A DNA stretch of 32,150 nt from Verrucomicrobiia bacterium (lineage in GTDB: Bacteria; Verrucomicrobiota; Verrucomicrobiia; Limisphaerales; DSYF01): assembly GCA_035765895.1 (NCBI GenBank), contig DASTWL010000005.1, forward strand, positions 1 through 32,150. The letters run 5' to 3'. The position numbers and the translations under genes are program-made. The notes below the pieces were generated by a model, which worked only from the letters and a program-made list of their open reading frames with translations, was not told the DNA's origin and ran no database searches. Shown here piece after piece: positions 30,870 to 32,150 of this stretch; position 1 is the stretch's first letter, and each line of letters begins with the position of its first letter.

Positions 30870-31343
30870 TTATTTCTCTTTGGCAAAGTCGTAGGTCCAA
30901 ATCACAAATCTATCAATGTTGAGCTTTTGCTCGCCGGCAGGCACATGAAGAATTTCTCTAGCTTTATCCTCTGCAATTTCTAGTGAACGATTTGTCCACA
31001 AGCCCAGCAACTCGATGTCGTAGGGGCGATCAGATGAAGACTGGATGGTCACTGTGACATGGTTTGTATCAGAAAACTTCATCTCACCTTTTGCGCTCAT
31101 CCAAGGACTGCCTCCAACTGGGCCAACCTGATAACTAAACGTCTCAAGGGAATACTTGTAACTCAAGTTATCCGGCCCGCTGTAATCAAACTGCGGCCTG
31201 CCGCGTTCGTTGGAGGCAAGCGTGATTACGGAAGCTTGCTGGGTCGGTATAAAGGTAGAAGTTTTTTGTTCCGACTGTTTAGAACATCCAAGCAACAAAG
31301 CAAATGTTGCGCAAAAGCAAAATAGACAGGGGATGATTTTCAT
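30870..31343 (-). CDS. Small putative lipoprotein, lower GC than its neighbours
   Basis: 157 residues. MKIIPCLFCFCATFALLLGC ends in a lipobox (LLGC, Cys20), so it is likely a lipoprotein. The mature part begins with a Ser/Gln/Lys/Thr-rich linker and is then beta-rich ('YKYSLETFSYQVGPVGGSPWMSAKGEMKF'). An AAGG lies nine bases before the ATG. Base composition is visibly more AT-rich than in the flanking Bat genes. It lies 6 bp upstream of DUF58 and directly after a palindromic repeat element, so it may be an acquired cargo gene placed in the operon, or an ordinary gene with a different history. No family is recognised. Confidence 0.7.
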   Translation of the reverse strand: MKIIPCLFCFCATFALLLGCSKQSEQKTSTFIPTQQASVITLASNERGRPQFDYSGPDNLSYKYSLETFSYQVGPVGGSPWMSAKGEMKFSDTNHVTVTIQSSSDRPYDIELLGLWTNRSLEIAEDKAREILHVPAGEQKLNIDRFVIWTYDFAKEK

Positions 31344-31366: not shown

Positions 31367-31584
31367 GAACGCCAACGGCGTTCCATCATCCAGCCCAGGG
31401 TTGGCGCGCAGCGCCTACCCTGGGTCGTCGTTCCAAAATCTCCCCAACCCTGAAAGGGTTGCATCATCGCGTCTCCGAATTTTTCTTCAACCCCTTCAGG
31501 GTTGGAAAAAATCTGGGGAACGCAAACCCAGGGTAGCTCGTTCCTCGCAACCCTGGGCTGAAGGCTGGAACGCCTTTGGCGTTC
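31367..31584. repeat. Composite inverted repeat built from six nested palindromes
   Basis: Six hairpins lie in mirror order: A 31367-31383 (GAACGCC-AAC-GGCGTTC), B 31394-31424 (CCCAGGGT...ACCCTGGG with inner GGCGC-GCA-GCGCC), C 31445-31461 (CAACCCT-GAA-AGGGTTG), C' 31488-31504 (CAACCC-CTTCA-GGGTTG), B' 31527-31557 (CCCAGGGT...ACCCTGGG), A' 31568-31584 (GAACGCC-TTT-GGCGTTC). The left half closely resembles the reverse complement of the right half, including the sequence between hairpins. It sits between moxR and the lipoprotein gene. It resembles mobile REP/BIME- or MITE-type elements; no transposase and no clear target duplication is visible. Confidence 0.8.
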
Positions 31585-31637: not shown

Positions 31638-32150
31638 TCACCCCAACTTCTTCAAAATCTCCTCCAGCACTTTCGCCGGTTTCTGGCCTTCGGCGAGGGC
31701 TTCGTAGCTCAGGCGGATGCGGTGCAGCACCACGTCCTCGGCGAGCTGGAACAAATCTTCCGGCACGACGTAGTCGCGGCCGACCACAAAGGCGCGGGCG
31801 CGGGCCGCTTGCACGATGGCCAGCCCGGCGCGCGGCGAGCAGCCGAGTTCGATGCTCGGATGCGTGCGCGTGAGGCGGACGAATTCCACGCAGTGTTTCA
31901 TGAACACGTCGCTGACGTGGACTTGCTGCACGGTTTCCATCGCCTTGGTGAGGTCGTCAATGTGGCAGACGGGCTGGCCGGAAATCATGTCGAACGCGGT
32001 CTTGGGCATCGCGCCTTGTTCGGTGCGCTTGAGCCCCATCTTGACTTGGCGACGCAACACTTCTTCTTCCTGCTCGGGATTCGGATACGTCAGGCGATGG
32101 CAAAGCATGAAGCGGTCGAGCTGCGCTTCGGGCAGTTCAAACGTGCCCGC
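31638..32150 (-). CDS. MoxR-family AAA ATPase, C-terminal part (start beyond the window)
   Basis: The frame is open through base 32150; about 170 C-terminal residues are present. The first visible residues, AGTFELPEAQLDRFML, are the MoxR sensor region just after the Walker B end of the AAA core. The rest is the helical lid domain: 'YPNPEQEEEVLRRQ', 'HPSIELGCSPRAGLAIVQAARARAFVVGRDYVVPEDLFQLAEDVVLHRIRLSYEA', the conserved GxSPRA sensor 2 and AxxxGRxYVxPxD pattern. MoxR ATPases act as chaperone-like partners of DUF58 and VWA proteins. It is the first gene visible of the leftward Bat operon. Walker A is outside the window. Confidence 0.92.
   Translation of the reverse strand, partial: AGTFELPEAQLDRFMLCHRLTYPNPEQEEEVLRRQVKMGLKRTEQGAMPKTAFDMISGQPVCHIDDLTKAMETVQQVHVSDVFMKHCVEFVRLTRTHPSIELGCSPRAGLAIVQAARARAFVVGRDYVVPEDLFQLAEDVVLHRIRLSYEALAEGQKPAKVLEEILKKLG

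Follow-up and report, generated by a model that had tools for sequence, protein, structure and literature searches.

The moxR locus and anatomy of the element

The window, a stretch of 32,150 nucleotides from the source genome (G000), contains the 3' part of a moxR-like AAA+ gene (31638 to 32150, minus strand; AAA_lid_2) and a small putative lipoprotein gene (30870 to 31343, minus strand; no family match). Between these two genes of the same strand, filling most of the 294-nt gap, lies an element at 31367 to 31584, with moxR upstream and the lipoprotein gene downstream of it in operon direction. It is a gene-less pair of three-hairpin ends, with no strand as a whole, delimited by inverted arms, folding and a covariance model.

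The first-pass annotation described six palindromes in the order A-B-C-C'-B'-A', with the left half aligning to the reverse complement of the right. The six palindromes were borne out and are far above chance. The C palindrome pattern had three matches in the window against 0.1 expected, all within C and C', and the RNA folding energy was -128.8 on one strand (shuffles -72.7 ± 4.7, z -12) and -146.1 on the other (shuffles -79.7 ± 5.0, z -13). The long inverted arms were likewise confirmed at 31364-31403/31548-31587 (88%), 31415-31434/31517-31536 (85%) and 31433-31461/31488-31516 (79%).

The left half (31367 to 31467, plus strand; A-tag-B-C-tag) scored 106.3 bits with covariance model R1, and the right half (31482 to 31584, minus strand), which is the same unit inverted, scored 97.4 bits. 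The model was built from 33 halves, both window halves included, and its edges coincide with the outer coordinates of the first-pass annotation. On the plus strand, hairpin A (GAACGCC-AAC-GGCGTTC, 31367 to 31383), whose pairs covary in relatives, is followed by the tag CATC (31384 to 31387), which on the opposite strand is GATG and lies 5' of the hairpin. Then come hairpin B (31394 to 31424), a palindrome with its outer helix 98.9% paired, hairpin C (CAACCCT-GAA-AGGGTTG, 31445 to 31461), recognized as a palindrome and by covariation, and a second CATC (31462 to 31465), identical to the tag after A and covarying with it. The palindromes C' (31488 to 31504), B' (31527 to 31557) and A' (31568 to 31584) follow on the minus strand. 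The short centre between the halves (31468 to 31481) is the site at which gene-bearing copies in relatives carry a Y1 transposase gene. By its profile, a half of about 101 nt consists of A (17 nt with a 3-nt loop), a short tag, B (about 31 nt), a spacer of 20 nt, C (also 17 nt with a 3-nt loop) and a matching short tag. An Rfam search with the element matched no family.

Copies in the source genome and its relatives

Searches of G000 (4.6 Mb in 96 contigs, 96% complete) found four full mirrors, the window copy and one each on contigs C86, C3 and C23, while C12 and C80 carry fragments. With the covariance model of a single half, 10 halves were detected in all. The other three full mirrors sit between genes that differ from site to site, and the small ORFs overlapping the C23 copy appear spurious. 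Among 58 genomes (G000 and 57 relatives of the same order), the covariance model gave matches in 42 and plain DNA similarity in 28, with at least 60 halves in the richest genome. Copies thus exist elsewhere, in the genome and in relatives, and a mobile origin survives the search. The model found no halves in G001 (same genus) or G003 (same family) and three weak matches in G002. One relative, G024 (97% complete), has nine halves including full mirrors and no Y1_Tnp match, and so resembles an orphaned population.

In a pattern scan of named genomes, Verrucomicrobia made up most of the matches listed, among which were also Planctomycetes, Lentisphaerae, Kiritimatiellota and a few Acidobacteria and Anaerolineae. 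Records titled Akkermansia muciniphila or Klebsiella pneumoniae also carry the PVC-type repeat (L130, L141, L151, L175); these titles look like mislabelled environmental MAGs.

Neither a clean empty site nor a target duplication was found at the copies examined. The closest homologue of the operon, in G004, lacks the element but also lacks the lipoprotein gene. A few copies have direct repeats in their flanks, which were rejected as target duplications because the clear ones are 63 to 242 nt long and belong, at least in part, to other repeat families. The C86 mirror (L003/L022) is flanked by a 175-nt direct repeat (91%) that contains another palindrome family (GCGCCGTAGGCGC-GGCATAG), indicating that several repeat families cluster there. 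Elsewhere, a mirror (L044, G048:C231, about 1477-1692) and a Y1 gene (L089, G006:C138) are flanked by direct repeats of 153 nt (90%) and 112 nt (98%), respectively, which resemble the coiled-coil tail at the C-terminal end of a putative type I restriction specificity gene.

Covariation of the hairpins and coupling of the tags

Base pairing has been maintained through sequence change. Across 33 halves, 91.3% of cells in the three hairpins were paired (84.5% after shuffling), with 52 double-sided changes (10.2 shuffled) and 14 pairs showing double changes (5.6 shuffled), each value being reached by none of 500 shuffles. When the partner was shifted by one column, pairing fell to about half. The helix is not conserved at the inner tip of B (54.5% paired in the same halves).

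The tags after A and C also vary together. In 62 halves they agreed at 2.77 of 4 positions, compared with 1.97 ± 0.10 in shuffles (0 of 5000), and in a larger set of 225 halves agreement was 2.72 against 2.13 (0 of 5000). The coupling was still present with a single half per genome (0 to 1 of 5000 shuffles). Inside single genomes it was weak (327 of 5000 shuffles reached the observed value), so tags change mainly between lineages, and differences among lineages may account for the coupling as much as constraint on each copy does. The commonest tags 3' of a hairpin were ATC, GTC and GGC, that is, GAT, GAC and GCC on the other strand. They are similar to guide sequences described for IS200/IS605 and REP systems (PMC6006769, PMC8266576) and, by this analogy, would be guide sequences themselves. 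The target-site consensus gave just a weak preference for C outside hairpin A, which was not used as evidence.

The gene-bearing form and its transposase

As a rule, halves occur in facing pairs. Facing halves of gene-less mirrors are separated by about 12 nt, mostly 9 to 17 nt, with others at 24 to 207 nt. A second class of facing halves has a gap of 474 to 493 nt (about 480 nt) that holds a single Y1 (IS200-like) transposase gene. This arrangement was found in relatives (L064 in G013, L076 in G008 and L111 in G041) and on named contigs (L143, L184, L208, L232 and L234), while in L040 (G005) the gene is flanked by a full mirror plus one further half. Halves lay within 500 nt of 17 of 41 non-redundant Y1 ORFs, a sample that is partly biased because the element itself was used to fetch many of the loci. 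The Y1 genes adjoining element copies at G005:C12, G013:C176, G008:C54, G041:C237 and G048:C86 came from a list of Y1 genes in 22 element-bearing relatives that was compiled independently of the element.

The gene-less mirrors have their ends in common with transposase-bearing elements (L064, L076, L111, L232), as MITEs do. As in TIRtrons, long TIRs surround a tyrosine transposase gene and recur elsewhere and, as in REPINs, two inverted palindromic units are dispersed in intergenic DNA. In L040, L064, L076 and L232 the transposase stop codon lies at or beside the inner-hairpin tag of the downstream end (...TGG GAT TGA T-TCAACCC...), so that the gene runs up to or into the end of the transposon.

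The element-associated transposases group together in the tree (2 label changes, compared with a mean of 11.9 after shuffling; 0 of 500). Four proteins exceeded the Y1_Tnp cutoff, and three of four exceeded that of the IS200/IS605 model NF033573. REP_Tyr_transpos matched only one of four, at 20.7 bits against a cutoff of 80. The motif Y---Q--HH was present in 14 of 15 element-associated rows, L207 being the exception, and in nearly all Y1 proteins of the set, none of which had Y---NP. Two tree outliers were rejected as true associations: L207, a weak match on a very long branch, and L039, a gene with ends of its own that simply lies next to a mirror. Y---Q--HH is the signature of TnpA_Y1 subclass 1.2 (PMC6006769). 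By this motif and their IS200-type core domain, as read from sequence, the element-associated transposases are assigned to that subclass.

The IS200-like gene sought alongside the repeats is thus present between halves in relatives, but a matching transposase was not found in G000 (96% complete), and for this reason its copies are probably stranded relics. The two subclass 1.2 genes that G000 does have were rejected as the source of the element because their flanks belong to other families. Two Y1 genes of G000, L018 (C52) and L019 (C72), are flanked by palindrome clusters in identical, direct order on both sides (317 nt at 87% and 118 nt at 88%, respectively).

The three-hairpin plan in other Y1 families

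Inverted ends of 70 to 107 bp also flank other Y1 genes of the order, and most of them follow the same plan in unrelated sequence: A, 11 to 12 nt usually finishing in TAG or CAG, a longer-stemmed B, a spacer, and C. The model built on the window's family still detected ends of other families (L104, L105, L106, L108 and L093). Tag coupling was also seen in these other TIRs, with a mean shared run of 3.29 against 2.00 ± 0.23 (0 of 20000) in 14 ends, part of them related to each other; in some families (L083, L088) no shared tag was visible. Outside the order, a subclass 1.2 gene on a Persicobacter (Bacteroidota) plasmid has the same three-hairpin arrangement, in other sequence, mirrored around it; the inverted ends of another Bacteroidota gene do not read clearly as three hairpins. 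It is a tentative but serious possibility that the whole of subclass 1.2 represents an undescribed kind of single-strand transposon, found in PVC and Bacteroidota, with inverted three-hairpin ends bearing two coupled guide tags each, and also moving gene-less mirrors in trans. In the open-access papers searched, neither three-hairpin ends nor coupled tags are described, and subclass 1.2 is given no DNA partner.

Origin of the element

Very probably, the element is a non-autonomous copy made up of two IS200-like (Y1, HUH) TIRs that stand back to back and enclose no gene. It is best read as a MITE- or REPIN-like derivative of a TIR-tnpA-TIR element. In each terminal repeat, of about 101 nt, the order of the three hairpins is fixed, and the same short tag follows A (outer) and C (inner). 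A subclass 1.2 transposase would bind hairpins A and C in single-stranded form, the tags would act as guide sequences choosing the cut sites in the manner of IS608, and the enzyme would move gene-less copies in trans.

The first-pass annotation had proposed a MITE or a BIME-like array moved by a RAYT transposase. Its MITE- or BIME-like part is upheld by the dispersed intergenic copies and by the halves that flank a Y1 gene in relatives, but the RAYT label is not. A canonical REPIN or BIME, whose REP doublets depend for movement on a class 2 tyrosine transposase (RAYT, TnpA_REP), would share with the element its inverted palindrome pairs, intergenic copies, association with a Y1 protein and tag at the hairpin foot. 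However, the proteins match IS200/IS605 rather than REP_Tyr_transpos and carry Y---Q--HH instead of Y---NP, the tags are of the ATC/GTC/GGC type with no GT[AG]G 5' of the hairpin, and each end has three hairpins, not one. The canonical RAYT reading is unlikely and, to judge from motif and tag, largely refuted.

Single halves and truncated copies (C12, C80), and the other palindrome families flanking the C86 copy, could instead point to a decayed cluster, a BIME-like mosaic into which halves were inserted singly, repeatedly and independently, and not a unit with two ends. This is very unlikely, as facing pairs recur across many genomes with a gap of mostly 9 to 17 nt, and the gene-bearing form shares both ends with the gene-less form.

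Left and right halves of one element were no more alike (identity 0.735) than halves of other elements in G000 (0.762), which fits a mirror of two inverted ends and argues against selection for a long cruciform; a specially maintained cruciform was rejected on this ground. That the element is a conserved structure processing, stabilizing or attenuating the mRNA between moxR and the remaining operon, as had also been suggested, accords with its position between same-strand genes and with the very stable hairpin expected in the operon transcript, but is very unlikely: there is no excess of left-right complementarity, the terminator scan showed no terminator-like site at the element, copies adjoin unrelated genes, and moxR and DUF58 are only 27 bp apart in G004, which means that this locus does not conserve the structure as regulatory DNA. 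The promoter scan gave nothing relevant to the element. Any effect on RNA of the moxR operon would be a by-product of insertion of the gene-less transposon copy.

Significance and comparison with known systems

The element probably shows the DNA that subclass 1.2 single-strand transposases are built to handle. A subclass catalogued as generally without the typical IS200 terminal structures (PMC6006769) would thereby gain a candidate DNA partner, whose hairpins and tags can be synthesized for experiments. The coupled tags would offer a natural series of guide variants bearing on cut-site choice by Y1 enzymes. A common, so far nameless palindromic repeat of Verrucomicrobia genomes would also be explained, and such structures should not be taken for regulatory RNAs.

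Four known systems come close. In TIRtrons (TIRYT), a tyrosine transposase gene lies within long TIRs that recur in the genome singly, as dimers and in clusters, and some of these repeats are 'double palindromic' (Di Nocera et al. 2013, PMC3733652). TIRYTs were treated there as relatives of RAYTs and later reassigned mostly to subclass 2.1 (PMC6006769). The elements described here are alike in having a tyrosine transposase gene with long TIRs that recur elsewhere, but differ in their three-hairpin ends, coupled tags and subclass 1.2 protein.

REPINs are inverted REP doublets, non-autonomous and thought to be moved in trans, in which compensatory changes preserve the hairpins (Bertels and Rainey 2011, PMC3116915). 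An inverted pair of palindromic units as a non-autonomous element is common to both systems. In REPINs, however, there is one REP per side, a GTAG tag and a class 2 RAYT, compared with three hairpins per side here; movement of the present element is inferred.

IS608, an example of the IS200/IS605 family, has subterminal hairpins at whose foot lies a short guide sequence (PMC6006769, PMC8266576). It resembles the gene-bearing form in its Y1 HUH transposase and in a hairpin with a foot tag, but its two unlike ends have one hairpin each, in contrast to the near-symmetric, inverted three-hairpin ends found here.

TnpA_Y1 subclass 1.2 itself comprises kin of the IS200 transposases, of low copy number and mostly from Cyanobacteria and Bacteroidetes (Quentin et al. 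2018, PMC6006769). The proteins associated with the element share its Y---Q--HH motif, its low copy number and its kinship with IS200 transposases, but they occur across Verrucomicrobia and are accompanied by elaborate three-hairpin ends.
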